Below are positions 15,701 through 29,434 of a stretch of 35,672 nt of DNA, piece after piece. Where the stretch lies: assembly GCA_030427925.1 (NCBI GenBank), contig JAUICJ010000027.1, positions 1 through 35,672 on the forward strand, written 5' to 3'. The position numbers and the translations under genes are program-made. Source of the DNA: Bacteroidia bacterium. GTDB taxonomy: Bacteria > Bacteroidota > Bacteroidia > Flavobacteriales_D > Sanyastnellaceae. Below the pieces are notes generated by a model, which saw nothing but the letters and a program-made list of their open reading frames with translations, ran no database searches and was not told where the DNA came from. The first letter of the stretch is position 1; every line of letters starts with the position of its first letter.

Positions 15701-17181
15701 AACGCGTCAGGCGCCACAAAACCGTCCTGCGACAACGTTCCCACCTTGTAGGTTTCCCCGCCCAGCGTGTATTCGTACGAAACGGCGAGCACCTCCGCGT
15801 TGTTCAGGGCTTGACGGAGCGAAATGAAGCCGAGTCGGCTGTTGAACGTGTATTCGGTCGGCGCCAGCTTCCGCGCATTGCCCACGCGCTCAAAGTGAAC
15901 GCCCTGGTTCAACCCCAACCCGGTGTTGCCGATGGCCGCAATCGCTCCCGTGAACCCCATCACTTCGGGATCTTGGACCATCAAATCGAACAGCTCGTTG
16001 TTCGCGTTCGACGGATTGCGCAACGCCGTGGGCTGCACTTCCGGCCCGTCCACGAGTTGCTGCACCGGGATGTTCGTCGAAATGTACTCCTCGTGCTCAC
16101 CCAAATCCGTGAAAGCGAGGACGTTCCGAACGTCCTGCGTGTTCGCCTGCATGTTGACGACCCACACCTCCAACCGCGTGATGTTCACTCCGGAATTCGG
16201 GACCGGCAAGCTCTTCATCGCATTGTCGTACGCGTCAACGAAGTACTGCGAAAGGAAGAAGTGGCGGTTCGCCTCGTAGTCGTCTGCGCGGATGTCGAAC
16301 GGCTGGGTTTGCGCGCCGCCCTCGACCGCAATTTCCTTGCGCTCCCCCTTCTGCTGGGAGAGCACGGTCGTGTTGTACAATCGGCCCCACTGCGTTTCGA
16401 GCTTGACCCCGAAAAGGCTTTGGCTTCCCGTGATGAGGGTTCCCGGAAGCGGCATGGAGATGTGACCCGCCTCCACGTTCTTCATGATGTCGTCCTCCTC
16501 GCCTTGGAAGCCGATGTTCATTTGGTTTTCAAAATCGAACAGCGCCTCGGTGTTGTACTGGGTACCGAGGTCGATTTTATCGCCGATTTTGCCCCCGATG
16601 TTCAGCTGGATGCGCTGGTCAAAATTGAAGGTCGTGATGCGGCGCTGCTGTTCCGGAATCCGCGGATTCTCGGTGTTGGACATGTTGAAGCCAAACGTCA
16701 ATTCAGCCGAACCCTGCGGCTTGATTTCGATTTCGTTGGACCCGAAAATCGACTCGAACAAATCGTTGTCAACCGTCAGCTTTGGCGCGAAAGCGCGTTC
16801 CGCTTCGTCCTCTTCGACCTGGAGTTGATCCCAGTATTCGGACAGGTTGCCCTGCATGTCGAAATCGAGGTATTCGTCGAGCGTGAAGTAGGTGGATGGG
16901 CGGAATTCGAGGGTGTCGCCGATGGTTTGTTGCACCACGTACTGGCCGGTGGCCTCGTCGTAGACAATGTTGTATTGAATGTTGGACGGCCAATCGAAAT
17001 CGAAGCCCGCGGGGGACTCCGATGGGTTGTAGGGGTTTTCACCTCCAAAAGGGAAGGGCAGGTTGATGGACGCGGTGTCGGTTTGGCCCCACACCCCCGC
17101 GCTTGTGCACAACACGCAAAGCGCCAACAGCGTGCGATTCCAACGGCTGCTCAAGCCCATTTTCATGCGATTCCTACCCAT
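9757..17181 (-). CDS. sprA: T9SS outer-membrane translocon SprA
   Basis: A 2,474-residue protein, similar to the roughly 2,400 residues of Flavobacterium johnsoniae SprA. SprA forms the very large beta-barrel pore through which type IX secretion cargo crosses the outer membrane, and is needed for gliding in gliding species. A signal peptide is seen at the N-terminus (basic start, hydrophobic core, ending VWGQ). Family features include repeated SprA N-terminal domains with ITGSQSLFGVKLETQWGR and the GDQGNAYVDDFEGSQ segment near residue 835. The C-terminal third is rich in alternating aromatic strands. An RGG-type glycine-rich insert lies at residues 1656-1705. It starts 1 nt after the ruvA stop (ATG 17181; ATG 17166 and 17160 are in-frame options) and is followed by gcvH. 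The partner Sov/Plug/PorV genes are not in the window. Confidence 0.97.
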   Translation of the reverse strand: MGRNRMKMGLSSRWNRTLLALCVLCTSAGVWGQTDTASINLPFPFGGENPYNPSESPAGFDFDWPSNIQYNIVYDEATGQYVVQQTIGDTLEFRPSTYFTLDEYLDFDMQGNLSEYWDQLQVEEDEAERAFAPKLTVDNDLFESIFGSNEIEIKPQGSAELTFGFNMSNTENPRIPEQQRRITTFNFDQRIQLNIGGKIGDKIDLGTQYNTEALFDFENQMNIGFQGEEDDIMKNVEAGHISMPLPGTLITGSQSLFGVKLETQWGRLYNTTVLSQQKGERKEIAVEGGAQTQPFDIRADDYEANRHFFLSQYFVDAYDNAMKSLPVPNSGVNITRLEVWVVNMQANTQDVRNVLAFTDLGEHEEYISTNIPVQQLVDGPEVQPTALRNPSNANNELFDLMVQDPEVMGFTGAIAAIGNTGLGLNQGVHFERVGNARKLAPTEYTFNSRLGFISLRQALNNAEVLAVSYEYTLGGETYKVGTLSQDGFVAPDALILKMLKSSVTQVQLSNGDPAPLWRVMMKNVYSMQAFGVSREDFRLNLWYNDPSTGVDLNYIPREPLDGTLLLQLLGMDRLDINGQSVQDGVFDFVDNAATMGGTIESQSGRIFFPSTEPFGSNLRREIEERVDDPDLAQSLIETIVFQALYDSTKTAAQQIPALNRFRIKGQFQSQTSSEIALNALNVPEGSVTVTAGGVRLIENQDYTVDYNLGRVRIINDGLLSSGQTIKVSLESNSLFNIQTKTMLGTRFDYVVSDDLVFGATALNLRERPLTQKVNIGNEPVNNSILGLDFAWQTESQLLTEIVDKLPFYETSATSSIDISAEGAYLIPGHSRAVGDQGNAYVDDFEGSQSAIDIRSVSRWFLASTPRLQNNLFPEAQLEDSLVSNYNRAQLSWYTIDPQFFRGSGLQDGQVSADVKSDHRSREVLEGEVFPNRELPTGTPPNTPTLDLTFRPNVRGPYNYEEPLGADGLSSGLAPDGTLLEPESRWGGIQRALTTTDFELANIEYVQFWLMDPFNEDSENITGGDLYFNLGNVSEDVLNDSQLSYENGLPSESNTELPVLESIWGLYPDPSTFNVVNAFDNSSGSYVLQDVGLDGLPDAGEQEHFAEWLESLTDWLDPSALSEYQSDPSADNFRYFRNPEAQANEATILERYADFNGYENNSNTGAPDGYPITSTTIPNTEDINQDITLSTIESYYQYRVSLRPQDLGPNSIGKNYVTDSFEQTVTTANDEQRTVRWYQFKIPVREFENRVGGITDFRSIRFIRMFMKGWSEEVTLRFARLELIRGEWRRYMESLAGMQELEPDDPASTSFALSAVNIEENGNRDPVPYVTPPGIIREIDVGTANQRRLNEQSLELAVCELEDGDARGAYRNINYDMRRYRRLKMFVHAEAGPNGTSLDNGDLTAFIRLGSDFESNYYEYEIPLEVTPWYTGDDNAIWPEANNMDIEFQKWQNLKIERPTGFPMSQEYAVMDGNVRLAVRGNPNLANVTMLMVGIRNPDQDTNPWGEDDGLDKCAVVWVNELRLSDFNEDGGWAVVAQMNAKLADLANVSVAANMSVPGFGGLEDRVQDRQQETLQGIDASGTIQLGKVLPKRLGVTLPMYVGFSEQISTPQYDPLSPDLEMAQQEGLSTERREQAKSVQRLRSVNFSSIKINPQLRGGGGSSDRNAERGGGSETVSASMRGGAAAGGGSARGGRGGGSGGGGGTSSGILRMFNFLKPGNFTGNYTFNETYRRDVNTEFQINREHHGGLTYNFSNSPHQFKPFGKIGFLQDVAFFKWLTDFNFYLGIKQFTASSQMDRRYETQRVRNNTEALLGVNTGLLINTQVLKTWNWTRNYTVKYDLTQALTFDFNAGAQALVGEPVGVIDRTDIDLFNAYRDTVLNNLRDAGEVTTYNHTLNGRYRLPFDKLPLVNFMTGDAQYEGTYRWDRAPFSQDTLGNTIQNSRKLSLNYQANFLNLYNKVPFLKDVLSPPRAPRRPTRDINNEDRDGFGNTDDEKIKLEINPVEHLLRLIMMIENVSATYSRNEGMLLPGYAQRARYAGFDEDFGAPGWEFLLGHQNTNVLGDRTGDFAQFAADQGWLVQQPNLNQQFTETYTETFNARANLQPFKHMKVELTANRNITRNYQSFYRYNEDLQEWLNDTPNETGQYSATIFTWPTAFVNDDESFDSDIWGNFLNYRRTISSRLNDQSYQLDEPEANGYYIGWGPTSQEVTIPAFMAAYMGLDPDNVELDVFNTPIAPNWRVTFDGLTKSPFFKQYFKRFNINHSYRSTLTTSYLTNLSYEEDPLTGLPTAFDQSDFGNFITPRQYNTVSISEQLAPLIGFDMTLNAANESEPQVKVEIKRDRNVVFGLTNYQITETKSHTLVIGTGYTLRNIPNPFLRTHGKLPVQMLDETDLVLRCDVNIRDNSTIIRKMQERQNQVTAGQKLVSIKFSADLEVSSKLTLRAFYDHQITNPYISTSFATSNINSGVSLRFNLNQ
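12064..12216 (-). other. Glycine/arginine-rich (RGG-like) low-complexity insert within SprA
   Basis: Encodes residues about 1656-1706 of SprA: several GGG and GGGG runs, RGG repeats and Ser. On the plus strand it reads as a CCGCCG-type low-complexity run. It is likely to be a disordered loop between strands of the barrel or cap. Confidence 0.85.
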
Positions 17182-17182
17182 C

Positions 17183-17776
17183 TTACAGCCGCTTCAAGGC
17201 CAATTTGATCAAGCCCTCCACCGGCAAGGCCGACGGAGACTCTGAGATGATTGTGTCCAACGTTCGTTCGCACCGGGCCCGGTCAAAGCCCAGCGTGGTC
17301 AGGGCAGTTAACGCATCCGTTCGCGCGTTATTGTGTCCTTCCCCGGCCACTTTACGCACAGATCCGCCCGGGGTTTCATTTCCGAGTCGATCCTGCAAAT
17401 CCACGATGATGCGTTGGGCCGTTTTCGCACCGATGCCTTTCACCGCTTTCATGGCATTGACATCGCCCGATTGAATGGCTGCCCGCGCCGTTTGGGCGTC
17501 CATTGCGCTTAAAATCATGCGGGCGGTGCTCGCCCCCACACCACTGACTCCGAGGAGGGCGAGGAACAGCTCGCGCTCCTCCGCATCGGCAAACCCGAAT
17601 AAAATTTGGGCGTCCTCGCGCACGACCAGGTGGGTCAAAAGCAGGAGGTCCTCCCCACTCCCGAGCCGTTCAAATGTCGTCAGGCTGATGTGGACCAAAT
17701 ACCCCACGCCCGCGCACTCCAACACCGCATGGGTGGGCTGCTTCTCAACAAGTCTTCCTCGGAGGTGGTGGATCAT
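17183..17776 (-). CDS. ruvA: Holliday junction branch migration protein RuvA
   Basis: A 197-residue protein of normal length. RuvA binds the four-way Holliday junction and loads the RuvB motor onto it for branch migration in recombinational repair. The N-terminal OB domain begins MIHHLRGRLVEKQPTHAVLE with the GVGYLVHIS segment. The helix-hairpin-helix pairs are seen as LLGVSGVGASTARMIL and MKAVKGIGAKTAQRIIVDL. The C-terminal domain III (about 150-197), which contacts RuvB, includes ALTTLGFDRA. The ATG overlaps the maeB stop (ATGA), and sprA begins 1 nt after the stop, so the three genes form a tight operon. Confidence 0.97.
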   Translation of the reverse strand: MIHHLRGRLVEKQPTHAVLECAGVGYLVHISLTTFERLGSGEDLLLLTHLVVREDAQILFGFADAEERELFLALLGVSGVGASTARMILSAMDAQTARAAIQSGDVNAMKAVKGIGAKTAQRIIVDLQDRLGNETPGGSVRKVAGEGHNNARTDALTALTTLGFDRARCERTLDTIISESPSALPVEGLIKLALKRL

Positions 17777-20046
17777 GTTGACGGCGTGTTTTGCGCATCG
17801 ACGACCGCCAACCGGATCATGTCCAGGATTTCACGCACCGACGATCCCATCTGAAGGATGTGAAATGGTTTGTCCATGCCCAGCAGCACAGGTCCCTGCG
17901 CCTCCAACCCCGCCATTTCCTGCAGCAACTTGTAGGCGATGTTGCCGGCACTGAGGTTCGGGAAAATTAAGGTATTCACCTGCCGACCGTGCAGCGTCGA
18001 GAACGGGAAGGTTTCCGAGAGGAGGTCTTCGTTCAAGGCAAAATTCGCTTGGATTTCACCGTCCACGATCAAATCCGGGTGCCGCTCCCGGAGAAGGGCC
18101 GCCGCCTCGGCCATTTTGCTGGCACCCGCGCCGCCCGAAGAACCGAAATTGCTGTAGCTCAGCAGCGCAATGCGCGGAACGATGCGCAGCTTCCGCACGG
18201 CCTCTGCGGTGAGCAGCGTGATGGCCACGATGTCTTCCGCTGTCGGATCGACGTTCACGGTCGTGTCCGCAAAGAACATGGGGCCGCGTTTCGTGATGAC
18301 GATGTACATGCCCGCAACCTTCGTCACGCCGGGAGCCTTGCCGAGAACCTGCAAGGCAGGCCGAATGACCTTCGGGTAGGTGCGGGTCAACCCGCTGATG
18401 AGGGCGTCCGCTCGTCCGGTTTTCACCAACATGGCCCCGAAGTAATTCCGCTGGCGCATGAGGCGCTCGCCTTCGCGAACGGTCAGCCCCTTGCGCTTCC
18501 GCACCGCGTGCAGCGCGGCCCCGAATTCGACCCGATCTTCCGCAACCGCGTCGGAACGCGGATCGATGATTTCTGCATGAGGAAGCTCCAGTTTGAATTC
18601 CTCGATGAGGGCCTCAATTTTCGAACGGCGACCGAGCAGAATCGGCACCGCAATGCCTTCGTCCACCGCTTGCTCGGCGGCTTTGAGGACTTTGTAATTG
18701 TCGGCTTCGGCAAACACCACGCGCTTCGGTGCTTTCTTCGCGCGTTCGGCGATGGTGCGCGAGAACGTGTTGTCGTGGCCGATCCGCGAACGAAGTTGGG
18801 CATCGTACTGCTCCCAATCCGCAATGGGTTCTTGAGCAATGCCCGACTCCATGGCCGCTTGGGCCACGGCAGGAGCGACCGTTGTGATGAGGCGCGGATC
18901 GAGCGGTTTCGGAATGATGAGGTCTCGACCGAAGTTCAGGGATTGGTTTCCGTAAGCCGAGGACACCTCATCGGGCACGTTTTCTTTCGCCAATTCTGCG
19001 ATGGCGCGGACCGCAGCGAGCTTCATGGCGTCGTTGATGCCCGTGGCGCGCACGTCCAATGCTCCCCGGAAAATGTAGGGGAAACCCAGCACGTTGTTGA
19101 CTTGGTTGGGGTGGTCGGAGCGCCCCGTGGCCATGATGACGTCCTCGCGGGAAGCGATGGCTTCGTCGTATCCGATTTCAGGGTCGGGGTTCGCCAGCGC
19201 GAACACGATGGGGTTGTCGGCCATCCGCTTCAAGTCCTCCCCCGTCAACAAGCCCCCCTTGCTCAGTCCCAAGAACACATCCGCGCCTTCAAGTGCCGCC
19301 TTCAAGTCGGGGTACGTCTCTTTCGTGGCGTAATGGGCTTTGCGTTCGTCGAGGCCGGTTCGTCCCGCGTGGATGTGGCCCTTCGAGTCGAACACGGCAA
19401 TCCGCTCCTTCATCACACCCAACTGTTCGTACAAGTCCAAGCACGACATCGCCGCCGCCCCTGCACCGCTCACCACAATGCGCACGTCCTCGATGCGCTT
19501 GCCCGCCAATTCCAGGGCATTGAGCAACGCCGCAGCGGAGATGATTGCCGTGCCGTGCTGGTCGTCGTGCATCACGGGAATGTTGAGCTCTGCCTTCAAG
19601 CGCCGCTCGATTTCAAACGCCTCGGGCGCCTTCAAATCCTCCAGGTTGATGCCGCCGAACGTCGGGGCGATCGCCTTGACCGTGTTGACGAACAAATCCA
19701 CATCCGAAGCGTCCACCTCGATGTCGAACACGTCAATGTCGGCGAACACCTTAAAGAGCACCCCCTTTCCTTCCATCACCGGCTTGCTCGCCTCCGGGCC
19801 GATGTCCCCGAGCCCCAACACCGCAGTCCCGTTGGAGATGACCGCCACGAGGTTGCCCTTCGCGGTGTACTTGTATACGTCCTCCTTCCGTTCGGCGATG
19901 GCGAGGCACGGCTCCGCTACGCCTGGGCTGTAGGCCAAACTCAAGTCCCGCTGTGAGCTGTACGGCTTCGTCGGTACGACTTCAATTTTCCCGCGTCGGC
20001 CGCGCGCGTGGTAGTCGAGCGCCTCTTGTTTGTTCGATGGGTTCAT
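17773..20046 (-). CDS. maeB: NADP-dependent malic enzyme with C-terminal phosphotransacetylase-like domain
   Basis: A 757-residue MaeB. The N-terminal part (about 1-420) is the malic enzyme that oxidatively decarboxylates malate to pyruvate with NADP. It shows YSPGVAEPCLAI, GDIGPEASKPVMEGK, INLEDLKAPEAFEIE, VMHDDQHGTAII and the nucleotide loop VSGAGAAAMSCLDLY. The C-terminal part (about 430-757) resembles phosphate acetyltransferase but in this enzyme class is thought to be regulatory, responding to acetyl-CoA. It heads the maeB-ruvA-sprA run, with its stop overlapping the ruvA start. A possible promoter and a 14-bp palindrome lie upstream at 20054-20111. Confidence 0.97.
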   Translation of the reverse strand: MNPSNKQEALDYHARGRRGKIEVVPTKPYSSQRDLSLAYSPGVAEPCLAIAERKEDVYKYTAKGNLVAVISNGTAVLGLGDIGPEASKPVMEGKGVLFKVFADIDVFDIEVDASDVDLFVNTVKAIAPTFGGINLEDLKAPEAFEIERRLKAELNIPVMHDDQHGTAIISAAALLNALELAGKRIEDVRIVVSGAGAAAMSCLDLYEQLGVMKERIAVFDSKGHIHAGRTGLDERKAHYATKETYPDLKAALEGADVFLGLSKGGLLTGEDLKRMADNPIVFALANPDPEIGYDEAIASREDVIMATGRSDHPNQVNNVLGFPYIFRGALDVRATGINDAMKLAAVRAIAELAKENVPDEVSSAYGNQSLNFGRDLIIPKPLDPRLITTVAPAVAQAAMESGIAQEPIADWEQYDAQLRSRIGHDNTFSRTIAERAKKAPKRVVFAEADNYKVLKAAEQAVDEGIAVPILLGRRSKIEALIEEFKLELPHAEIIDPRSDAVAEDRVEFGAALHAVRKRKGLTVREGERLMRQRNYFGAMLVKTGRADALISGLTRTYPKVIRPALQVLGKAPGVTKVAGMYIVITKRGPMFFADTTVNVDPTAEDIVAITLLTAEAVRKLRIVPRIALLSYSNFGSSGGAGASKMAEAAALLRERHPDLIVDGEIQANFALNEDLLSETFPFSTLHGRQVNTLIFPNLSAGNIAYKLLQEMAGLEAQGPVLLGMDKPFHILQMGSSVREILDMIRLAVVDAQNTPST

Positions 20047-20136: not shown

Positions 20137-20892
20137 TCAGAAACCGCGGAAGAAAACCGATTCCGTGGCGCGTGCGACGGGGGTTTCGAGGACCACGATG
20201 TACGTGGCGGCGGGCCAGCCGAGCGTGGGCAACAGGATTTGGCCTGAAGGCGCGTTCAAGGCCTGCTCGAACACCACCCGACCCTGCACATCCACCACGC
20301 GGAAGGCGCCGACCGAAGCCCCCGCCAAATCGAACGCCCAACGTTGTTCATCCAAGCGGTTCAACGCGGGTTCCGCCGTGAATTCCGGCACTTCGAGCGC
20401 CTGTTCCACCCGGAACGTGATGTCGTGGCAGGAGCCCGCCTCGGGGTCTTGATCCACTTCGTGAATGCAGTAGCGCAAGGTGGACGTGCCGACCACGCCC
20501 GCGTGGTAGTAATCCGTGACGAGCGTGGTGTTCACTTCGCCCGGTTCCATGGTAACCAACAAGGAAGCATTCGTCGAAGACTGATCCGTGCCAAAGTTGT
20601 AGCACAACGGCCCCCAGCAGAACCGATCGTAGGCCCCTTCAGCGCCGAACATCCAGGGGTAATTGTACGGGCTCACGGTATCGACAAACAGCCGGGTAGC
20701 CATGAGGATGAGCGTGTCTTCGCTCGTGTTTTGAACGTCCAAATGAATCGACAGTTCATCATCCTCGGGGACATCGAGGTACGCGACGACCGTGTCGACG
20801 GGTTCGATGAACGTCACGGGAGCTTGAGCCAGCGCGCTGCCCATGGCGAAAAGCGTCGCGGCGGAGAAGATTGCGGATTTGGTACGATTCAT
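20137..20892 (-). CDS. Secreted protein with T9SS-type C-terminal sorting domain
   Basis: A 251-residue protein. A signal peptide (basic MNRTK, hydrophobic 7-20, ALAQ) sets the start at 20892 although the frame is open further upstream. The middle (about 25-165) is a beta-rich domain with Cys residues (CWGPLCYN, YCIHEVD, GSCHDITF) that I do not recognise; it resembles a C-type immunoglobulin-like or cell-adhesion fold only in general composition. The last 75 or so residues look like a type A sorting domain: FRVVDVQGRVVFE, LNAPSGQILLPTLGWPAATYIVVLE, ending FFRGF. It therefore is probably exported by the T9SS, whose translocon gene sprA lies 3 kb away. It is divergent from the tlpA-like gene. 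Confidence 0.75.
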   Translation of the reverse strand: MNRTKSAIFSAATLFAMGSALAQAPVTFIEPVDTVVAYLDVPEDDELSIHLDVQNTSEDTLILMATRLFVDTVSPYNYPWMFGAEGAYDRFCWGPLCYNFGTDQSSTNASLLVTMEPGEVNTTLVTDYYHAGVVGTSTLRYCIHEVDQDPEAGSCHDITFRVEQALEVPEFTAEPALNRLDEQRWAFDLAGASVGAFRVVDVQGRVVFEQALNAPSGQILLPTLGWPAATYIVVLETPVARATESVFFRGF

Positions 20893-20897
20893 GCGAC

Positions 20898-20905
20898 GCA
20901 AGATA
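20898..20905 (-). promoter_or_regulatory. TAnnTT-type box 5 nt before the T9SS-tail gene
   Basis: Reads TATCTTGC on the minus strand and ends 5 nt before the ATG at 20892. It keeps TAnnTT but not the final TG of the consensus. No TTG lies at 19-21 nt spacing. Confidence 0.25.
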
Positions 20906-20966
20906 CAACGCGCGGCATCAACCGCATCCGAGGAATTGCGTACATTCGCCCGACCTGTAAAACACC

Positions 20967-21482
20967 ATGAGCTACATCGACCACCCTGCATGGCGCGGCA
21001 TAGCTGCCTTTGCCTTCTTTACCGCCGTACTTTCCTTTGCCCACGCGCAGCAGACCGTTCCTTCGGTTGAGCTGGTGGATTTGGATGGCAAACTTGTCGA
21101 CACCGAAGTCCTTGCGGACGAACACGATGGGCCGACGTTGTTCTGTTTTTGGGCGACGTGGTGCAGCCCGTGCAAGCGGGAGTTGAACAACTACTTGGAT
21201 CTGTACCCCGATTGGCAGGACGAGACCGGGGTGGAGTTGGTCGCCGTGAGCATCGATGACCAGCGGAGCAAGAACCGGGTGGCGCCTTACGTGAACAGCG
21301 CGATGTGGGATTACACGGTGTTGCTGGATCCGAACCAGGAGTTCGCGCGGGCGATGGGCGTGGTGAACGTGCCGCACACCTTCCTCGTGAATGCGGAAGG
21401 CCAAATCGTTTGGCAGCACAACAACTACGCCGACGGCGATGAGGAAGAACTGTACGAGGAACTCCTGAAGCTCGCGGAATGA
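20967..21482 (+). CDS. TlpA-like periplasmic thioredoxin-fold protein
   Basis: A 171-residue thiol-disulfide protein. A signal peptide or anchor occupies about residues 10-28 (ending AHAQ). The redox site is WCSPC (C66-C69) after the family FWATW strand, and the cis-Pro loop is GVVNVPHTFLV. Such proteins reduce or exchange disulfides in the periplasm, for example in cytochrome c maturation or protein folding. Its stop overlaps the ATG of the DUF6029 gene (ATGA), so the two are co-translated. That context suggests it serves the folding or the cargo of the outer-membrane protein. The partner that gives it electrons is not in the window. Confidence 0.92.
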   Translation: MSYIDHPAWRGIAAFAFFTAVLSFAHAQQTVPSVELVDLDGKLVDTEVLADEHDGPTLFCFWATWCSPCKRELNNYLDLYPDWQDETGVELVAVSIDDQRSKNRVAPYVNSAMWDYTVLLDPNQEFARAMGVVNVPHTFLVNAEGQIVWQHNNYADGDEEELYEELLKLAE

Positions 21483-23158
21483 AGCTTCGGGTTGCACTCT
21501 TGATCGGGGCGTGTTGGGCGAGCGCGACGGGGATTTGGGCCCAAGACGAAGAAGACACCGGGCGCATTTCCGGAAATGTCCAAATCCTGTGGCAATCCTA
21601 CGCGGAAGACAGCCTCATCGGCGCGGTAGTTCCGCCTGAAAAAACGGGGTACAACGCCTACGCAAACCTCCTCTACCAACGCGGAAACTTCAGCGCAGGC
21701 ATGCGCTACGAGTCCTACCTGAACGCGGTCATCGGGTTTCCCGGTCGGTTCAAGGGCACGGGGCTCGGTTACCGCTACGCCCGCTACACCGACCGCGATG
21801 CCGGGGTCGATGTGACCATCGGCAACTTCTTCGAACAGTTCGGCAGCGGCATCGTCTTGCGCAGCTACGAGGCGCGGGCCTTGGGCATCGACAACGCGCT
21901 CGATGGATTCCGGCTCATTTTGACCCCGGTGCGCGGCGTGCAAGTGAAGGCCTTGTACGGCCGCATGCGCCTCGACTTCGATTCGCGGCTCATCAACTCC
22001 CCCAACCTCATCCGGGCCATCGACGGGGAACTCGACCTGAATGAGCTCGTGCCCCGTTGGTCCGACAAGGACTTGCGCGTGAAACTCGGCGCTTCCTTTG
22101 TCAGCCGCTACCAACCCGGCGGCACCATCATCAAGGACACCCTCGTCCTCCAGCTCCCCCAGAACGTCGGCGCCTGGTCCTACCGCTTGGGCCTTCAGCG
22201 CGGCGGCTGGATGGGCGACCTGGAGTACTGCGGCAAAATCAACGATCCGAGCGCGGACAACGGCTACACCTACCGGGGAGGCGAAGCGCTCCTCGCGTCC
22301 CTCGGCTATTCCACGCGCGGCCTCGGCATTTCCCTCAACGCGAAGACGGTGGACAACATGAGCTTCCGGGCGGACCGCGACCTCCTCCTGTTCGACGTGC
22401 CGGTGAGTTTCATTCCGGCGATCACGCAGCAGCACACGTACAACCTCGCCGCGACGCTGTACCCGTATGCCACGGTGATCAGCGGGGAATCGAGTGCAAG
22501 CGCGGAAGTGTTTTACCAAATCCCGAAAGACACCCGACTCGGCGGCCACTACGGCACGAAAATCGCCATCGGCTACGCGGCGGCCAACGCGCTCGACACG
22601 ACCCGACTGAGCGGGCGGGAAGGGCTCATCGACGGCTACACGCGGAACAGCTGGGGCTTCGGTCGGACGAAATTTGTCCGGGACCTCAACGTGAGCATCG
22701 AGCGCAAGCTGAACAAAAACTGGAAGCTCAAGTACACCTACTTCAACTTCCAATTCAACACGCTGGCCACGCCCGTGACGACCACCTACAAGGGCATCGT
22801 CTACGCGGACATCCACGTGCTGGAAACGCAAGTGAAAACCGCCCGTCGGCAAAGCTTGCGCACGGAACTTCAAGCACTCTTCACCGAGGAGGACAAGGGC
22901 GATTGGGCCACGGTGCTCGCGGAATATACGTGGAGCCCGCACTGGTTCGCGAGCGTCATCGACCAGTACAACTTCGGGAACCCCGATCCGAACTTGCGGG
23001 TGCATTACCTGTTCGGAACCGTGGGCTACATCAACGGAGCCCACCGGTTGTCACTCGGTTACGGCAAGCGGAGGGAGGGCATTTTCTGCATCGGCGGCGT
23101 CTGCCGGGCGGTGCCCGCATCGAACGGCTTCGAAGTGAGTTTTTCGACGCGCTTCTGA
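21479..23158 (+). CDS. DUF6029 family outer-membrane protein
   Basis: A 559-residue protein with a signal peptide (MKLRVALLIGACWASATGIWAQ). The rest is a long series of amphipathic beta-strands rich in Tyr, Phe and Gly, such as YNAYANLLYQRGNFSAGMRY, GLGYRYARYT and TIGNFFEQFGSGIVLRSYE, and it ends in an aromatic Phe followed by Arg-Phe (FSTRF), as expected for an outer-membrane barrel. It matches what is named DUF6029 in Bacteroidota. Function is unknown. It is coupled to the tlpA-like gene by ATGA overlap, and a long hairpin follows two nt after its stop. The pairing with a thioredoxin-fold protein is reported often in this phylum, as far as I recall. Confidence 0.8.
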   Translation: MKLRVALLIGACWASATGIWAQDEEDTGRISGNVQILWQSYAEDSLIGAVVPPEKTGYNAYANLLYQRGNFSAGMRYESYLNAVIGFPGRFKGTGLGYRYARYTDRDAGVDVTIGNFFEQFGSGIVLRSYEARALGIDNALDGFRLILTPVRGVQVKALYGRMRLDFDSRLINSPNLIRAIDGELDLNELVPRWSDKDLRVKLGASFVSRYQPGGTIIKDTLVLQLPQNVGAWSYRLGLQRGGWMGDLEYCGKINDPSADNGYTYRGGEALLASLGYSTRGLGISLNAKTVDNMSFRADRDLLLFDVPVSFIPAITQQHTYNLAATLYPYATVISGESSASAEVFYQIPKDTRLGGHYGTKIAIGYAAANALDTTRLSGREGLIDGYTRNSWGFGRTKFVRDLNVSIERKLNKNWKLKYTYFNFQFNTLATPVTTTYKGIVYADIHVLETQVKTARRQSLRTELQALFTEEDKGDWATVLAEYTWSPHWFASVIDQYNFGNPDPNLRVHYLFGTVGYINGAHRLSLGYGKRREGIFCIGGVCRAVPASNGFEVSFSTRF

Positions 23159-23160
23159 AG

Positions 23161-23205
23161 CCCCGTGTTATGAGCACGTTCGCGTGGGTAACTCATGTTA
23201 CGGGG
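23161..23205 (+). repeat. Long hairpin with TTCG tetraloop between DUF6029 and thioredoxin-like genes
   Basis: The outer stem is CCCCGT (23161-23166) with ACGGGG (23200-23205), the middle stem ATGAG (23170-23174) with CTCAT (23192-23196), and the inner stem CACG-TTCG-CGTG (23175-23186). A five-base bulge GGTAA lies on the 3' side. It starts two nt after the DUF6029 stop. The tail is AAATAAAATTTCG and not a T-run, so it is not a textbook terminator; it could stabilise the upstream mRNA or lead the next transcript. Confidence 0.6.
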
Positions 23206-23263
23206 AAATAAAATTTCGACTATTTTAGTCGTGCAAAATTGCAAACCAACCAATCCTTTTTTA

Positions 23264-24724
23264 ATGAAGCATTTTTACGCTCTCTTGGCGGCGCTCCTCG
23301 TGGGAACGTCTGCTTTCGCCCAGTTGCCTGATGGCAGCGTGGCTCCTGACTGGACGGTCACCGACTTGGACGGAACCGAATGGAACCTGCAAAGCTTGCT
23401 CGACGATGGAAAGACGGTGATCATCGACTTTTCTGCAACGTGGTGCGGCCCCTGCTGGAACTACCACAACACGCACATCTTGCGTGACTTGCACGACACG
23501 TTTGGTCCCAACGGAACGGACGATTTGGTGGTCTTCTTCTTCGAAGGCGACGATGCAACCACCAACGCGGATTTGAACGGAACGGGCCCATCCACTGCGG
23601 GTGACTGGGTGACCGGTACGACCTACCCGATCGTGGACAACACGGGCGGCATTTTCGACGACTACCAAGGGGCTTACTTCCCGACCATTTACACGATTTG
23701 CCCCGACGGCATCCTCGTGGAATCGGGACAAGCTTCGTTCGACGACCACGTGGCCATCGCGTTCGCTGACTGCGAAAACGACATCACGGGTGCGGCACCT
23801 CTCGTGGATTACACGGGCGATTTCGTGGCGTGCTCCAACGGATGGAACGCCTCCGTTGACATGACGAACTTCGGTTCTGCGGATGTGACGGCTGCTACGT
23901 TCTCCGTGACGGTGGGCGGTGTGGCTCAGCCGGACGTGGAATGGACCGGCACCCTCGCTGCGGGCGCTACGACCTCCGTCGACTGCGGTGCTTACACGGC
24001 AACCGGCGACGTGAGCATTGAGCTCTACTCCGTGAACGGCAACGCTTGGTCTTCTGCTGCTGATTTGTCTGTCGCTGCGGCGACCGAAGGCACGTCGCTC
24101 ATCAAGATCACCATCCTCACGGACAATTGGGGTGAAGAAACCGCTTGGGAAGTCATCGACGACATGGGCAACGTTTACGGAAGCGTGAACTTCAACACCT
24201 ACGGCGACGTCACGGAATACGTTGAGTGGGTCAGCGTTCCGAGCACGGGCTGCTACTCCTTCAAAATGTACGACCAATACGGCGACGGCTTGTTTGGTTC
24301 ACAATGGGGCGGTGGAGCCGTCAATGGCTCGGCTACCGTTGAAACCTACGACGACAACTTGGAGTTGGCCTCCACGATTTGGTCGTACAACGGATCCTAC
24401 AACTTCGGTGAAGCTGCTGCCGGCATGGAAATCACGTCGGTCAACGTCAGCGTCGAAGAAACTGCGGTTGCAACGACCATGGACGTGTTCCCGAACCCCG
24501 TGATCAACAACGCGACGATTGCCTTCAACATGCCGGAGGCAGGTGACGCTTCGATCACGGTGTACAACCTGGTCGGCGCACAAGTCATGAACCTCGGCTT
24601 GGGCACGGTACCTGCTGGTGAGCAACGCCACGTCCTCGACATGAGCAACTTGGAAGCGGGTGTGTACTTGGTGGCAGTGGAGGCTGCTGGCGAAATCAAC
24701 ACCTTGCGCGTTACGAAGAAGTAA
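23264..24724 (+). CDS. Thioredoxin-fold secreted protein with T9SS type A sorting domain
   Basis: A 486-residue protein. Signal peptide 1-20 (ending AFAQ); thioredoxin/AhpC-like domain about 21-185 with active site WCGPC (C61-C64) in an FSATW context and a FPTIYTICPDG cis-Pro loop; a beta-rich central part (about 190-405) with a DQYGDGLFGSQWGGG segment; and a type A sorting domain (about 412-486) beginning DVFPNPVINNATI and ending NTLRVTKK. The sorting domain predicts export and surface anchoring or release by the T9SS. The start at 23264 is set by the signal peptide. Codons favour GCT, GGT and GTT more than neighbours do, which suggests high expression. It is followed by a strong terminator and preceded by an AT-rich 58-nt leader. 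Confidence 0.9.
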   Translation: MKHFYALLAALLVGTSAFAQLPDGSVAPDWTVTDLDGTEWNLQSLLDDGKTVIIDFSATWCGPCWNYHNTHILRDLHDTFGPNGTDDLVVFFFEGDDATTNADLNGTGPSTAGDWVTGTTYPIVDNTGGIFDDYQGAYFPTIYTICPDGILVESGQASFDDHVAIAFADCENDITGAAPLVDYTGDFVACSNGWNASVDMTNFGSADVTAATFSVTVGGVAQPDVEWTGTLAAGATTSVDCGAYTATGDVSIELYSVNGNAWSSAADLSVAAATEGTSLIKITILTDNWGEETAWEVIDDMGNVYGSVNFNTYGDVTEYVEWVSVPSTGCYSFKMYDQYGDGLFGSQWGGGAVNGSATVETYDDNLELASTIWSYNGSYNFGEAAAGMEITSVNVSVEETAVATTMDVFPNPVINNATIAFNMPEAGDASITVYNLVGAQVMNLGLGTVPAGEQRHVLDMSNLEAGVYLVAVEAAGEINTLRVTKK

Positions 24725-24743
24725 TCGCAACGAAACGCATTGG

Positions 24744-24774
24744 AACCGCGCTCCTTCGGGGGCGCGGTTTTTTT
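24744..24774 (+). terminator. Intrinsic terminator after the thioredoxin-like T9SS gene
   Basis: An 11-bp stem (AACCGCGCTCC paired with GGGGCGCGGTT, one G-T pair) capped by TTCG and followed by a run of T, 20 nt after the stop codon. It separates the thioredoxin-like gene from the Omp28-like gene. Confidence 0.93.
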
Positions 24775-24829
24775 GTGCCCGGTCAGAACGTTCGGGTCGC
24801 CGTATATTGGAGGCTCAGAATTGGTCGAC

Positions 24830-25702
24830 ATGAAATTCCTTCCTTTGTTGCGCTCCGCTGCGGTCGTTTTGGTGGCGGTGTCCTTGAATCGGTGTGACGT
24901 CATTGAAGACCCTGTGCTCCCGCAACCTGCGGGTTATCGGGTCGATTTGTACGGAGAACCGCCCGTGTTCGATGCGGTCAGCAGCACCGTGCAGCGGGTG
25001 CTCGTCGAGGACTTTACGGCGCACCAATGCGGGAACTGCCCCGATGCCGCCATCATAGCGGAAGGGCTAGCGACCAATGATCGGGTGGCGGTCATGGCCA
25101 TCCATGCTGGGAATTTGGCCTTGACGGATGATGACCACTTCGATACGGATTGGACGACGGAAGAAGGGGATGTGTTCTGGAATCAGCTGGAGTTCCAGGC
25201 GAATCCCATCGGTCGAGTGAACCGACTGCCCAACCCCGGAAACTTCTTCGCGCCCGCCCAGTGGAGCGATGAGACGGCCGCTGCCCTGGCCATGGAGCCC
25301 GTGCTGCACCTGGAGGGCGAGACGGAGTTTGTTCCGGCCAATGGTCACCTCAACGTGCACGTGTACGGCCAAGCCTTTGCCCAAACGAGCAGCCCGGTCA
25401 ACCTCGCGGTGCTCGTGTTGGAATCGCACATCATCGACTACCAATTGAACTACAGCGCGGCGGGCGACCCGATCGTGCCCGATTACGAATTCAACCACGT
25501 CTTGCGCGGTTCCTTGAATGGGGCGTTGGGACTGGCCTTTGGGGACCTCGGAAACGGCATGGAAGTGGGCGAAACCGCCACTGCGTCGTTCACGTATTCG
25601 TGGCCGAGTGAGTGGAACATTGAAAACGCCACCCTCCTCGCGGTGGCCACCGACGCAAACGGCGTGGTCTTGAACGTCTTCGAAATGCACCCGGTGGAAT
25701 GA
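24830..25702 (+). CDS. Omp28-related outer-membrane/lipoprotein with CGNC motif
   Basis: A 290-residue protein of the Omp28 family, first described as a surface protein of Porphyromonas. The N-terminal hydrophobic segment (residues 3-19) is followed by Cys22 in the context LNRC, a poor lipobox because the residue before Cys is Arg and not small. The diagnostic segment is VLVEDFTAHQCGNCPDAA with a CxxC pair (C67-C70) on a thioredoxin-like fold, then a VAVMAIHAGN strand. The C-terminal part is beta-rich and ends near the stop without a sorting domain. The start at 24830 fits the signal segment, although the frame opens at 24740. Its stop overlaps the start of the barrel protein gene (ATGA). Confidence 0.85.
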   Translation: MKFLPLLRSAAVVLVAVSLNRCDVIEDPVLPQPAGYRVDLYGEPPVFDAVSSTVQRVLVEDFTAHQCGNCPDAAIIAEGLATNDRVAVMAIHAGNLALTDDDHFDTDWTTEEGDVFWNQLEFQANPIGRVNRLPNPGNFFAPAQWSDETAAALAMEPVLHLEGETEFVPANGHLNVHVYGQAFAQTSSPVNLAVLVLESHIIDYQLNYSAAGDPIVPDYEFNHVLRGSLNGALGLAFGDLGNGMEVGETATASFTYSWPSEWNIENATLLAVATDANGVVLNVFEMHPVE

Positions 25703-26316
25703 GGGCGGCGATTGCGGTGGTGGGAATGGCCTTCGCTTGGGCGGTGAACGCCCAGGAGCCCCTTCGGTTTTCCGGAGCCTTGTACACGGGAATCAGCGCC
25801 AGCCAAATCCACGGGGATGGGGTTTCAGGCTTCGATAAGTTCGGGCTGACCGCAGGCCCGTTGTTGGAAATCTCGCGCGGAGATGTGGCGTGGGAATGGG
25901 GGCTGTTGTACACCCAAAAGGGCAGCCGCAAGGTTCCCAATCCCAAGGCGGGTGACTACTCGACGTGGCGGTATCGGTTCACCTACCTCGATGTCCCGGT
26001 GGTCCGCAAGTGGCAACCGGAATCGTGGTGGTGGTTTGGCATCGGCATCCAACCGAGTCTGCTGCTCAATGCCGAGGAGGACTTTTTCAGCACCGGCTAT
26101 TCGCCCCTGACCACGCCGGACCTGAAGGGCATCGACCTCGGCGTTTTGGGGCTCATCGGAGTGGAGTACACCGACCTCCTTACGTTCGAATTGCGCATGA
26201 GCCAAAGTGCCTTGCCCATTTCCGAACGGCCCGAAGCGCCGGTGATGCGCTGGGACAACTTCCTGATGAACATGGCGCTCCAGTTGGGCCTGAAACTTCA
26301 GTTCAATTCGAACTGA
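25699..26316 (+). CDS. PorT-like outer-membrane beta-barrel protein
   Basis: A 205-residue protein with a signal peptide (ending AVNAQ near residue 19). The mature part has about eight amphipathic strands: FSGALYTGISASQI, FGLTAGPLLEI, WEWGLLYTQKGSRK, WRYRFTYLDVPVVRKW, WWWFGIGIQPSLLL, LGVLGLIGVEYT and a final MALQLGLKLQF. The YLDVPVV strand is typical of the PorT/OMP_b-brl_2 family of small barrels in Bacteroidota. The role is unknown. It is co-translated with the Omp28-like gene by ATGA overlap, and converges with the BNR-repeat gene, with only one base between the two stop codons. Confidence 0.82.
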   Translation: MRAAIAVVGMAFAWAVNAQEPLRFSGALYTGISASQIHGDGVSGFDKFGLTAGPLLEISRGDVAWEWGLLYTQKGSRKVPNPKAGDYSTWRYRFTYLDVPVVRKWQPESWWWFGIGIQPSLLLNAEEDFFSTGYSPLTTPDLKGIDLGVLGLIGVEYTDLLTFELRMSQSALPISERPEAPVMRWDNFLMNMALQLGLKLQFNSN

Positions 26317-26317: not shown

Positions 26318-29300
26318 TCACTCGACCTGCCCTGCCGCGTTGAAGATCCGTTCGGGCGACCGGTCCAATTCGCTCACTGCCGCCAACCACGTGGCCCACA
26401 TGTTCGCCATCACGTCGTTCACGGCCTCCTCGAGTTCAGTCGTTTCTGAATCGAGGATTTCCGCTGCTCGAAGTGCGTTGGTGCCCAAGGCCTGACCCGA
26501 GTCGATGCGGCCCAATGCCGTCCACAATTCGTCGCTGAGGCGGCGGGTGACGTGGTCGTAGCCTTTGAATCCGCGCGGCGTGGTCCAGCGCTCTTCGACG
26601 CGGTGGAGTTCGGTGCGCAAGGAATCGGAGAGCTCGTCGAGGGATTCGCGATCGGACTTGGGAAGGTGCGCCCATGAAGGCGCCACCGCGTCGATGGTGG
26701 CGAGTGCGCGGGCAACCTCCTGGAGGGCCTCGTCGGCGCGGGCGGCAATGGCGTGCACGGCGCGGATTTGGGCTTGAGCTGCCCGAGCGGATTCTTCATC
26801 GTACGGAACGCGCGGGTCGGGGCGAACGGTGAGGGCCTGTCGGCTCACGTTGGATCCGAGTTCCATCACCACTTCGTACGTTCCGGGCAAGGCATCGGGA
26901 CCGCTGCCGGGCACCTCATCGCTGAGTTCCCGCAATCCGCGACGCGGCCAGTGAATCCCGTCGGTGGAAAGGCCCCAACGCCCTTGCTGGAGACCGGGTT
27001 CGACATCCCATTGCATGCGGCGGATGGTGTCTCCGGCGGCATCGAGGATGAGCACGCGCAAATCCCCGTCGCTGTAGGCTGCGGCCGTGTCGGGAGCGAT
27101 GTAGTAGGGCCAGAGGGCTCCGCTGCTTCGGTTTTGGCCTTCCCAAATCGGGTCACCCGGGAAACGCGCCCCCGCAGGACGCGCACGGTTCACCGCGAAC
27201 GCATCCCGCGGTTCAAAGGCCCGCAGCCCCGCCTCGAACACCCCATTTCCTTCCGTGGCCAACGCGCGCAACGGCTGCAAGTCATCGATGACGTACGCCG
27301 CCCGGCCGAACGTGCCGAGGACCAAATCGCCCCACTCCGGGTGAATGACCAAATCCCGTACCGGCACACTCGGCAAATCGTGGGTCCAGCGCCGCCAATT
27401 CACCCCCCGGTCAAAGCTGACGTACAACCCTCCTTCCGTGCCGAGGAAGAGCAACGACTCAGCCACCGGATCCTGGGCAACGCACAGCGCGTGACCCTGA
27501 ACACCGCTCCCTTCGAGCACCAACCGCTCCCACGTATTCCCCGAATCCGTGGTGCGGTAGAGGTACGGCTGGTCGTCGCCGCGCCGGTAGTCGTTGACGA
27601 CCACGTAGACCTCGCTCGGGCGGTGCGGGCTGACGTGAATTTGGGGAATCCATGCGCCTTGCGGAAACCGCTTGATTTCGGCGGCGTGGTCGCGCCACGT
27701 GGCACCGCCATCCGTGGTATGCTGCAGCCGCCCGTCATCCGTGCCGACCCAAATCTCATCCGCACTCGCAGGCGCGATGCACAAGATGGTGCAGTGGTTT
27801 TCCGCCTGAGTCGCGTCGATCGTCAGGCCGCCCGAAGTCGCCTGGTGGAGCTTCTCCGGATCGTTCGTCGTCAAATCCGGGCTCAGCACCCGCCAGCTCG
27901 CCCCCCGATCGTTCGAATGGTGCAGGAACTGCGAGCCGAAGTACAGCCCGTCGGCGTTGTTGGGATCCAAGCTCAGCGCCGCATTCCAAGCGAAGCGCAA
28001 GGGCACTGAATCCGGGCGCACCGGCTGAATCGACTGCGTCCGCCCCGTCCGCCGGTCGATGCGGGAAATGGAGCCGCCTTGGTACATCGCGTACACCGTG
28101 TGCTCATCCACGGGCTGCACATCGAACCCGTCCCCGAACAGCACCTCCTGCCAATCCTCGTTCCGGATGCCGCCCTGGTGCCACACCTCACTCGGCCCCA
28201 CCCACGACCCGTTGTCCTGCATGCCCCCGTAGATGTTGTACGGCGTAGCGTTGTCCACCGCGATGTGGTAAAATTGGCCCAAAGGCAGGTTCTCCACGAA
28301 GTCCCAGGTCTTGCCCCCGTCGCGGCTGATGTTCAAGCCGCCATCGTTCCCGTCGAGCATGAAGTCCGGGTCGTCCGGGTGGATGAAAAACGCGTGGTGG
28401 TCCGGGTGCACCCCGCTGTACGGCAGGATGGTTTCGAAGGTCCGCCCGCCGTCCGTGCTCTCATCGACCATGCTGTAGAGGTTGAACAGGTGGTCGGCAT
28501 CGGTCGGATCGGCATGAATTTCAGCGTAGTAGAACGGGCGGTTGCCCACCGCGTTGTCTTGGACCAAATCCCATTTCCGCCCCCCATCCTCTGACCGGTA
28601 CAAGCCCGTTCCCGACTCCGCCTCAATCAACGCGTACACGATGTCGGGATCCGCCGCGCTCATCGCCAGTCCCATTCGGCCCAACTTCCCACCCGGCAAG
28701 CCGGCCTCCTCGTCCAACCGCGTCCACCCGTCTCCCCCATCGTGCGTCACGTACAGCCCGCTGCCCGCCCCGCCGCTCGTGAACGTCCACGGCTTGCGAT
28801 GAAAGCTCCACATCGCCACGAACAGCTTGTCCGGGTTTGACGGGTCGAGCACCATCTCGGCCACCCCCGTCGAGTCGTCCACGAACAGCACGTGATCCCA
28901 GGTCTTCCCCCCATCCGTGGTCTTGTACACCCCGCGATCCGGGCCCGGCGCCCAAGCCGACCCCGTCGCCCCTACCCAAACCGTCTTCGGGTCGTCCGGG
29001 TGCACAATGACCCGGTGGATGTTGCGCGTCGCCTCCAGCCCCATGCAGTCCCAGCTCGCCCCGCCGTCGAGGCTCCGGTACACCCCAAGCCCGCTCGAAT
29101 GCGAGTTCCGCGGGTTCCCCTCGCCCGTCCCGACCCAAATCGCATCCGGATTCGAAGGCGCGATCGCCACGGCCCCAATGCTCTGCGTCGGCTGCTCGTC
29201 GAAGAGCGCTTCCCAGGTCAGCCCCGCACTCTCGCTCCGCCACAACCCGCCGCTCGCCGTACCCGCATAGATCACCTCCGGCCGATCGCGCTCCACGGCA

Positions 29301-29434
29301 ATCGCCGTCACCCGGCCGCTCATCGTGCCCGGCCCCACGTGCCGAACGGTCATGCCCTCCAAGAAGGATTCCACGTCTTGCGCCGAAACCAGCAGGGGTG
29401 CTGCCAGGAGGGCGAGGAAAATGCGCTGCTTCAT
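26318..29434 (-). CDS. Secreted VPS10/BNR-repeat (sortilin-like) beta-propeller protein
   Basis: A 1,038-residue protein with a signal peptide (MKQRIFLALLAAPLLVSAQ). Residues about 30-720 hold at least ten Asp-box (BNR) repeats of the S/T-x-D-G-G-x-T-W type, for example SLDGGASW, TTDGGKTW, SEDGGRKW, SRDGGKTW, SNDRGASW and TTDSGNTW, which form large beta-propellers as in sortilin VPS10 domains and sialidase or xyloglucanase-like proteins. The C-terminal 250 residues (helical, Arg and Glu rich at about 900-1000) carry no sorting domain that I can see. Family members of this layout in Bacteroidota are annotated as glycosyl hydrolases but the catalytic residues are not evident. It is the third gene of a minus-strand operon; its ATG overlaps the stop of the LEA-like gene. 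Confidence 0.85.
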   Translation of the reverse strand: MKQRIFLALLAAPLLVSAQDVESFLEGMTVRHVGPGTMSGRVTAIAVERDRPEVIYAGTASGGLWRSESAGLTWEALFDEQPTQSIGAVAIAPSNPDAIWVGTGEGNPRNSHSSGLGVYRSLDGGASWDCMGLEATRNIHRVIVHPDDPKTVWVGATGSAWAPGPDRGVYKTTDGGKTWDHVLFVDDSTGVAEMVLDPSNPDKLFVAMWSFHRKPWTFTSGGAGSGLYVTHDGGDGWTRLDEEAGLPGGKLGRMGLAMSAADPDIVYALIEAESGTGLYRSEDGGRKWDLVQDNAVGNRPFYYAEIHADPTDADHLFNLYSMVDESTDGGRTFETILPYSGVHPDHHAFFIHPDDPDFMLDGNDGGLNISRDGGKTWDFVENLPLGQFYHIAVDNATPYNIYGGMQDNGSWVGPSEVWHQGGIRNEDWQEVLFGDGFDVQPVDEHTVYAMYQGGSISRIDRRTGRTQSIQPVRPDSVPLRFAWNAALSLDPNNADGLYFGSQFLHHSNDRGASWRVLSPDLTTNDPEKLHQATSGGLTIDATQAENHCTILCIAPASADEIWVGTDDGRLQHTTDGGATWRDHAAEIKRFPQGAWIPQIHVSPHRPSEVYVVVNDYRRGDDQPYLYRTTDSGNTWERLVLEGSGVQGHALCVAQDPVAESLLFLGTEGGLYVSFDRGVNWRRWTHDLPSVPVRDLVIHPEWGDLVLGTFGRAAYVIDDLQPLRALATEGNGVFEAGLRAFEPRDAFAVNRARPAGARFPGDPIWEGQNRSSGALWPYYIAPDTAAAYSDGDLRVLILDAAGDTIRRMQWDVEPGLQQGRWGLSTDGIHWPRRGLRELSDEVPGSGPDALPGTYEVVMELGSNVSRQALTVRPDPRVPYDEESARAAQAQIRAVHAIAARADEALQEVARALATIDAVAPSWAHLPKSDRESLDELSDSLRTELHRVEERWTTPRGFKGYDHVTRRLSDELWTALGRIDSGQALGTNALRAAEILDSETTELEEAVNDVMANMWATWLAAVSELDRSPERIFNAAGQVE

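Follow-up and report, generated by a model that had tools for sequence, protein, structure and literature searches.

DsbD and CcdA carriers move reducing power over a membrane by means of protein thiols, and to our knowledge the inner membrane is the only one over which the protein-thiol carriers described so far bring it. Past the outer membrane, reducing power is known to travel by heme proteins or small molecules. In MtrAB-type porin-cytochrome conduits, a large barrel is combined with a redox partner in the periplasm and a redox lipoprotein on the surface. This work concerns a gene cluster at positions 20,137 to 26,316 of a 35,672-nucleotide stretch of DNA, referred to as the window, which is contig JAUICJ010000027.1 (positions 1 to 35,672, forward strand) of assembly GCA_030427925.1 from a Bacteroidia bacterium of the family Sanyastnellaceae (Flavobacteriales_D). 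The cluster encodes a TlpA-like thioredoxin-fold protein, an outer-membrane β-barrel of the DUF6029 family and an Omp28-family lipoprotein. The proposed system differs from DsbD and CcdA, to which no sequence link is claimed, in that it would cross the outer membrane, with a β-barrel bearing a CX4C hairpin as the carrier. It differs from the MtrAB-type conduits, to which it is likened by layout alone, in using thiols instead of heme.

The closest described surface protein is HBP35 of Porphyromonas gingivalis (structure 5y1a). According to the available portion of the report on it, HBP35 has a surface form and a thioredoxin activity that needs both cysteines, it reduces insulin in vitro, it has PG0615 as its neighbour, and its mutant grows slowly without heme (PMC2907840). 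Surface thioredoxins have also been proposed as protection for Muribaculaceae in a 2026 preprint (PMC13404670). The parts of these two sources that were available name no electron source for the surface thioredoxin (PMC2907840, PMC13404670).

The module formed by tlpA, DUF6029 and omp28 is well supported. It is based on synteny and co-occurrence, on conserved cysteines, on a single fusion found in nature, on the predicted folds and on the alternative of a lipobox or a type IX tail on Omp28. The chances are about even that the TlpA, the barrel and the Omp28/HBP35-type protein act as one envelope redox module, a thiol-disulfide relay that would start in the periplasm, run through the barrel and end at a thioredoxin on the surface. 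The preliminary description of this DNA had suggested a thiol relay or quality check among the CxxC proteins of the cluster. The relay part of that suggestion survives the two conditions of refutation set for it, on co-occurrence and on cysteine conservation; its membership was wrong in part, since the CGPC protein is not a core member and the barrel itself would be the central redox element. Two cysteine pairs had also been overlooked, C537/C542 in DUF6029 and C92/C97 in the divergent tail protein.

The tlpA-DUF6029-omp28 core

Among 60 genomes, the source genome and 59 relatives, 58 carry DUF6029; in a sample of 296 genomes across the phylum (source genome included) it is found in 80, 78 of which score above the cut-off. 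Gene neighbourhoods were compared in 55 loci near the source order, 60 loci from across the phylum and 80 named public contigs; these three sets share some genomes and are not independent, as seen for L174 and L049, whose contigs are equally long. The positions of tlpA and omp28 were counted by domain in loci with enough flank. Upstream of DUF6029, a tlpA gene on the same strand and no more than 1.3 kb away was found in 43/50 order, 46/59 phylum and 73/76 named loci, which gives 162 of 185 when the overlapping sets are summed. Omp28 is encoded on the same strand within 5 kb downstream in 50/51, 37/60 and 67/71 loci, respectively, and within 5 kb on either side in 53/55, 48/60 and 73/80. The redox linkage mostly outlasts ordinary synteny, because maeB, which is near DUF6029 in 31/55 order loci, is near it in 0/60 phylum loci.

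TlpA is a member of the AhpC/TSA-Redoxin fold family with a WCxPC motif, a cis-proline and a signal peptide, the latter read by eye, and a reducing activity is predicted for it. The WCSPC codons occupy positions 21162-21173, CSPC corresponds to residues 66-69 and the cis-proline is Pro136. The cysteine pair is kept in 90/90 aligned rows and Pro136 in 89/90. Motif, cis-proline, signal peptide and fold family are shared with the TlpA, ResA and CcmG proteins; the subgroup described here differs in being tied to DUF6029 and, in one genome, fused to the barrel. The same 296 genomes were searched with a model of the linked TlpA (A4, 32 rows), which scored at least 126 bits, a line chosen after the scores were seen, in 79/80 DUF6029-positive and 0/216 DUF6029-negative genomes, counts that are uncorrected for shared ancestry. 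Rows of A4 came from 16 of the 79 genomes by our own count of the row list, so that the other 63 were new to the model. Among the DUF6029-negative genomes the highest score is 114.8 bits; the search scored up to 12 candidates per genome, and a weak relative in a negative genome could be passed over. The only DUF6029-positive genome without a match is G284, whose DUF6029 match itself lies under the cut-off. Co-occurrence of the five genes had been set beforehand as a test of refutation; for TlpA with DUF6029 it is far beyond chance. In seven genomes picked for a non-adjacent TlpA, all seven encode it elsewhere (222-233 bits).

The two proteins are joined in frame at one locus (L121:6530-8530, genome G349), where TlpA residues 1-159 (156 bits) are followed by DUF6029 at residues 162-667 (463 bits). 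The DUF6029 part starts without a signal peptide of its own, so the fusion is not merely a lost stop codon. The N-terminus of such a barrel lies in the periplasm, and the fusion therefore places TlpA on the periplasmic side.

The barrel matches PF19494 over residues 15-559 (curated cut-off 27 bits; score in Table 1), and this is its only Pfam match at an E-value of 0.1. DUF6029 has one conserved cysteine pair only, with C537 kept in 111/111 and C542 in 110/111 aligned rows; among the 115 order and phylum loci, the reading frame was of sufficient length to be aligned in 110. The intact CX4C motif (C-x-x-G-x-C) is found in 110/111 sequences, and the exception, L137, is cut by a frame break. It is mostly spelled CVGGVC, CIGGVC or CVGGIC, more rarely CTNGVC or CTSGIC. 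Among the named loci the motif is present in 79/80, the remaining one (L186) being cut by the contig end. This C-terminal motif is a feature found here and lies outside the curated definition of PF19494. Cysteine conservation in orthologues thus extends to all three core proteins. AlphaFold2 modelling of the barrel (P0003) with 67 homologues gave a predicted local distance difference test score (pLDDT) of 93.4 and a predicted template modelling score (pTM) of 0.86. The predicted barrel has 24 strands by our own count from the DSSP assignment of the model, these strands span residues 29-558 of 559, and the CX4C hairpin corresponds to strands 23-24. Most short turns fall on one side of the model, and for this reason the hairpin is placed, as an inference from the model, on the outer side of the barrel.

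Omp28 carries a lipobox with Cys22 and a CGNC motif at residues 67-70 (codons 25028-25039). It scores above the curated PF11551 cut-off of 34.9 bits (Table 1), and reaches 95.9 bits against NF033782, the Omp28 outer membrane lipoprotein subfamily, which is below the cut-off of 150. The cysteine pair is conserved in 88/88 aligned rows. The Omp28 model (pLDDT 93.8) matches HBP35 (5y1a) with Z 23.8 over 217 aligned residues at 2.4 Å, followed by 2axo at Z 18.9 and, at 9.5, by the part of P. gingivalis Omp28 that has a solved structure; unrelated folds appear from Z 7.2 down. Profile comparison detects 5y1a with an E-value of 1.1e-6 and aligns the CxxC motif of Omp28 with that of TlpA at a profile probability of 84. 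Omp28 and HBP35 thus share CxxC and an architecture of a thioredoxin and an immunoglobulin-like domain; they differ in that the present protein is a lipoprotein without a type IX tail, and their profile similarity is modest. NF033782 matches (E up to 1e-5) occur in 59/80 DUF6029-positive and 13/216 negative genomes, again uncorrected for shared ancestry.

Two forms of Omp28 are found next to the barrel. A lipobox cysteine is present in 78 of the 88 linked rows, one of which (L066) is a broken frame, and absent from 10. The type IX tail model matches all 10 without a lipobox, nine of them above its cut-off and L166 with 19.2 bits, versus none of the 39 lipobox proteins scanned (the Omp28 of the window and 38 of the other 77). 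The Omp28 of the window (P0005) likewise gave no match to TIGR04183 or PF18962 and has the lipobox instead. The common property of the two export routes is a surface destination. Acidic residues after the lipid cysteine form part of the published Bacteroidetes surface-lipoprotein export signal, as far as the accessible part of that work goes (PMC5080379). The six positions after this cysteine hold a mean of 2.27 acidic residues in lipobox Omp28 versus 1.10 in a background of 61 other lipoprotein-like reading frames picked by pattern, and 68/78 lipobox rows have two or more. Omp28 is probably located on the surface. The preliminary description had placed one redox protein in the periplasm and a single one, the CGPC protein, on the type IX export route; the predicted export of the latter stands, and Omp28 would join it outside.

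Omp28 varies in number between loci. A double Omp28 with CINC and CGYC sites and CAGGQC between them is encoded by the omp28 frame 3390-5459 of L133 (G287), and tandem Omp28 genes with CGPC occur in G336 (L135). In loci L144, L147, L148 and L150-L153 (families f27 and f45), several proteins that are Omp28-like or have a type IX tail are encoded between tlpA and DUF6029 or upstream of them, which looks like a multiplication of the surface partner. The identification of Omp28 in the f35 genomes with the solved P. gingivalis Omp28 was unsupported for L128 (29 bits to 2r2c). Two tlpA-DUF6029-omp28 modules are present in G237 (L155/L156), and the Hymenobacter loci L201, L208 and L215 have all three core genes. 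A second DUF6029 copy in G049 (L066, G049:C3:213886-215559) is broken over several frames and adjoins tlpA; the intact copy with tlpA and omp28 sits on another contig (L076). Three contigs titled Euryarchaeota archaeon (L180), Chitinophaga pinensis (L200) and Sphingomonadales (L228) carry DUF6029 clusters that resemble those of Flavobacteriales, and their titles look doubtful.

A proposed thiol relay and its alternatives

In the proposed relay, TlpA would receive electrons from the inner membrane via a DsbD-type carrier, of which one is encoded (one DsbD_TM copy in the genome). Supply by an inner-membrane carrier is standard for TlpA-like proteins. TlpA would then dock at the periplasmic mouth of the 24-strand barrel, where the CX4C hairpin, on the outer side or folded into the lumen, would exchange thiols with it. 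The hairpin would also exchange thiols with the surface thioredoxin-fold protein, which would reach its place either by lipoprotein anchoring or by type IX secretion. That protein would in turn reduce clients on the surface, and the divergent type IX protein with CX4C may be one of them. For the steps beyond TlpA the proposal draws on linkage and conservation, and we infer from these that Omp28 lies on the surface, that electrons cross the barrel, that they flow in the reducing direction and which clients they reach. Tentatively, many Bacteroidota may thus possess a thiol-disulfide conduit that brings cytoplasmic reducing power outside the cell, with the barrel itself a redox protein by virtue of CX4C. 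Continuous exchange is favoured, although not proven, because a dedicated reductase co-occurs with the barrel near-exactly and is once fused to it in a 1:1 ratio.

Several observations weigh against such a relay. The membrane may separate TlpA from the CX4C hairpin, and the CX4C pair could be a static structural disulfide. A single TlpA-DUF6029 fusion was found. The counted upstream position lacks TlpA in 7/50 order, 13/59 phylum and 3/76 named loci; all order-set misses but L069 were traced, with tlpA further downstream in L033, L048 and L084, divergent in L073 and at another place in the genome for L056 and L058, and 5 of the 13 phylum-set misses have a divergent tlpA. No Omp28 above 40 bits lies within 5 kb in 12/60 phylum loci. 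In favour of the relay, a different thioredoxin-like CxxC protein that bears a type IX tail or lipobox lies beside the barrel in four of these 12; the protein has a type IX tail in L171, L172 and L167, and in L173 it is a lipoprotein thioredoxin starting C-S-G-D-D-S. In the other eight, no surface-type thioredoxin was found within 3.5 kb with the models used: L120, L134, L136, L142, L145, L146, L149 and L164. The NF033782 match is missing from 21/80 DUF6029-positive genomes and present in 13/216 negative ones. Finally, the N-terminus of the Omp28 of the window, C-D-V-I-E-D, has no literal match to the export signals K-(D/E)2, Q-A-(D/E)2, SDDDD or SDDFE.

The main rival to the relay is that DUF6029 is a pore for polysaccharide or small molecules and that TlpA and Omp28 only make, repair or switch the C537-C542 disulfide, as maturation or gating of the barrel. 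Disulfide-dependent assembly of a large barrel is established for LptD. Fold comparison also points to large pores: among the folds listed, the best solved match of the DUF6029 model is the FimD pore (Z 18.2, 375 aligned residues, 4.5 Å), followed by PapC at Z 17.2 with the OccK3 barrel close behind at 16.8. Ushers and other barrels score alike, and the fold match therefore says that DUF6029 is a large barrel and no more. In the available portion of a study of polysaccharide export, DUF6029 is described as a possible polysaccharide pore, and some Wzi-like barrels near polysaccharide export genes are linked to it by HHpred (PMC9603273). The neighbour maps of the present clusters show tlpA and omp28; OPX genes were not searched for with a model. 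With its presence in 79/80 DUF6029-positive genomes and one 1:1 fusion, the reductase looks more like a continuous partner than like a catalyst that folds the barrel once, and the protein that usually comes third is a thioredoxin anchored in the manner of surface proteins. Maturation or gating is thus rather unlikely as the whole function, while carrying more weight than any other alternative to the relay.

Less probable by a clear step is an usher-like function, in which DUF6029 would export the surface thioredoxin or the CX4C protein and the thiol pairs would act as a redox latch during passage. The predicted barrel shares its 24 strands with the FimD and PapC ushers, its best solved fold matches, and the neighbouring genes resemble cargo. 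The model differs from the ushers in lacking their extra periplasmic domains, with neither an N-terminal nor a C-terminal one present, and pilus chaperone and pilin genes were not searched for. The candidate cargo already bears lipoprotein or type IX export signals, and DUF6029, in 80/296 genomes, is found in too few for a general lipoprotein exporter.

A relay running in the opposite direction, with surface or periplasmic oxidation putting disulfides into surface and type IX proteins and TlpA as the acceptor or isomerase partner, is improbable. The proteins of the WCxPC TlpA type that have been studied are mostly reductants. The cysteine pair of the divergent protein, conserved in 93/93 rows, would suit oxidation, and an hbp35 plasmid is reported in the available part of the HBP35 paper to complement an E. 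coli dsbA mutant; the same source has HBP35 reducing insulin (PMC2907840). The last alternative, that the genes are neighbours for historical reasons and serve unrelated envelope tasks, finds some support in the linkage of sprA, ruvA and maeB in the order but is already close to refuted by the persistence of the tlpA and omp28 linkage in phylum loci where maeB was not found nearby, together with the near-exact TlpA co-occurrence and the fusion.

Layout of the locus and accessory genes

Six genes were confirmed from reading frames and curated models (Table 1), and the CSPC, CGPC and CGNC motifs lie where the preliminary description had put them. The tlpA gene diverges from the minus-strand gene of the 251-residue protein. 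The ATGA overlap of tlpA and DUF6029, which had been read as a fusion, was found in the sequence, and the two genes overlap without being fused. A second ATGA overlap joins the end of the Omp28 gene to the start of the small PF13568 barrel gene, as had been described. A strong terminator-like hairpin at 24742-24771 separates the CGPC gene from the Omp28 gene, and 0/200 shuffles were as good; the plus-strand genes are for this reason probably not one transcript, and a single operon is unlikely. A scan with consensus promoters, which do not cover those of Bacteroidota, found 0 sites versus 1.3 expected by shuffling, and the 24742 hairpin is not among the results of its terminator part. The source genome (2.95 Mb) encodes DUF6029 and Omp28 in single copy, 14 AhpC/TSA-type matches, two of them in the cluster, and 53 type IX tails, 50 of which are above the cut-off.

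Table 1. Features of the gene cluster, with window positions, strand and supporting evidence
Feature	Position	Strand	Evidence
Divergent small tail protein, 251 residues, signal peptide	20137..20892	-	Reading frame and start read; TIGR04183 15.0 bits
TlpA-like thioredoxin-fold protein, signal peptide	20967..21482	+	PF00578 73.2 bits, PF08534 67.5 bits
ATGA stop/start overlap of the tlpA and DUF6029 genes	21479..21482	+	Sequence
DUF6029 outer-membrane β-barrel (predicted)	21479..23158	+	PF19494 532 bits
Codons of C537-I-G-G-V-C542, last DUF6029 hairpin	23087..23104	+	Alignment
CGPC thioredoxin with type IX sorting tail	23264..24724	+	PF18962 44.7 bits, TIGR04183 42.7 bits
Terminator-like hairpin with U-tract	24742..24775	+	-28.4 kcal/mol, z -5.17
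Omp28-family lipoprotein, thioredoxin fold and immunoglobulin-like domain, HBP35-like	24830..25702	+	PF11551 66.5 bits
Small outer-membrane β-barrel (OMP_b-brl_2)	25699..26316	+	PF13568 31.2 bits

Two proteins with type IX tails had been named in the cluster. The assignment is sound for the CGPC protein and weak for the divergent protein, whose TIGR04183 score is under the cut-off of 23; the P-N-P of its tail is kept in 81-86 of 93 aligned rows. The pair C92/C97 (C-W-G-P-L-C) is the one conserved in all 93 of these rows, which were picked by a model of that protein. With a second model built from the first set of hits, and in loci with more than 3.5 kb upstream, the divergent family was found within 5 kb of DUF6029 in 36/44 order, 25/56 phylum and 48/68 named loci. 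Of the 26 hits in the phylum set, 14 are divergently oriented, and C-x(2-4)-C is present in 103/114 family hits. The divergent tail protein was also considered as PorA and this found no support, as neither the L128 protein nor profile A2 matched solved PorA, an entry whose presence in the database was unconfirmed.

The CGPC thioredoxin and the small barrel are lineage-specific additions. The CGPC protein has its motif at residues 61-64, and matches above 100 bits are found near DUF6029 in 34/55 order and 1/60 phylum loci. CxxC is kept in 31/43 aligned rows; both cysteines are replaced in the orthologues of L073 and L081 (WDSYAW and WDGYSW), and the other ten rows without CxxC are more distant proteins. 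A central place for this protein was rejected because it is common only near the source order and the cysteines are replaced in two orthologues. Tandem duplication of its gene between DUF6029 and omp28 is seen in the close relatives L046, L049, L050, L057, L060, L174, L176 and L181. The small PF13568 barrel has no cysteine, and matches above 30 bits occur in 45/55 order, 0/60 phylum and 25/80 named loci.

Directly upstream of the cluster, at 9757-20046 on the minus strand, lie sprA (type IX translocon), ruvA and maeB, an order kept in many relatives. All three are also beside tlpA-DUF6029-omp28 in L249, a contig titled Bacteroidales. SprA is encoded in 79/80 DUF6029-positive versus 149/216 negative genomes, likewise uncorrected for shared ancestry. 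In the exception, G287, the core comes with Omp28 as a lipoprotein, and the core therefore seems to need no type IX system. The gene directly after the cluster (26318-29434, minus strand) encodes a large BNR/sortilin-Vps10-like protein that is in place in 20/55 order and 0/60 phylum loci.

Meaning for surface thioredoxins

Literature searches, which left most subscription journals outside, returned no description of a thiol relay across the outer membrane. Queries on Omp28 with TlpA, reducing equivalents of surface thioredoxins, TlpA with the outer membrane, and Omp28 with thioredoxin likewise gave nothing on a relay, judged by titles and the starts of abstracts. If the relay is real, it would give a function to DUF6029, a family found in 80 of the 296 sampled Bacteroidota genomes, and it could explain how type IX-secreted proteins keep the right thiol state outside the cell. 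The module would also supply the electron source for surface thioredoxins such as HBP35.

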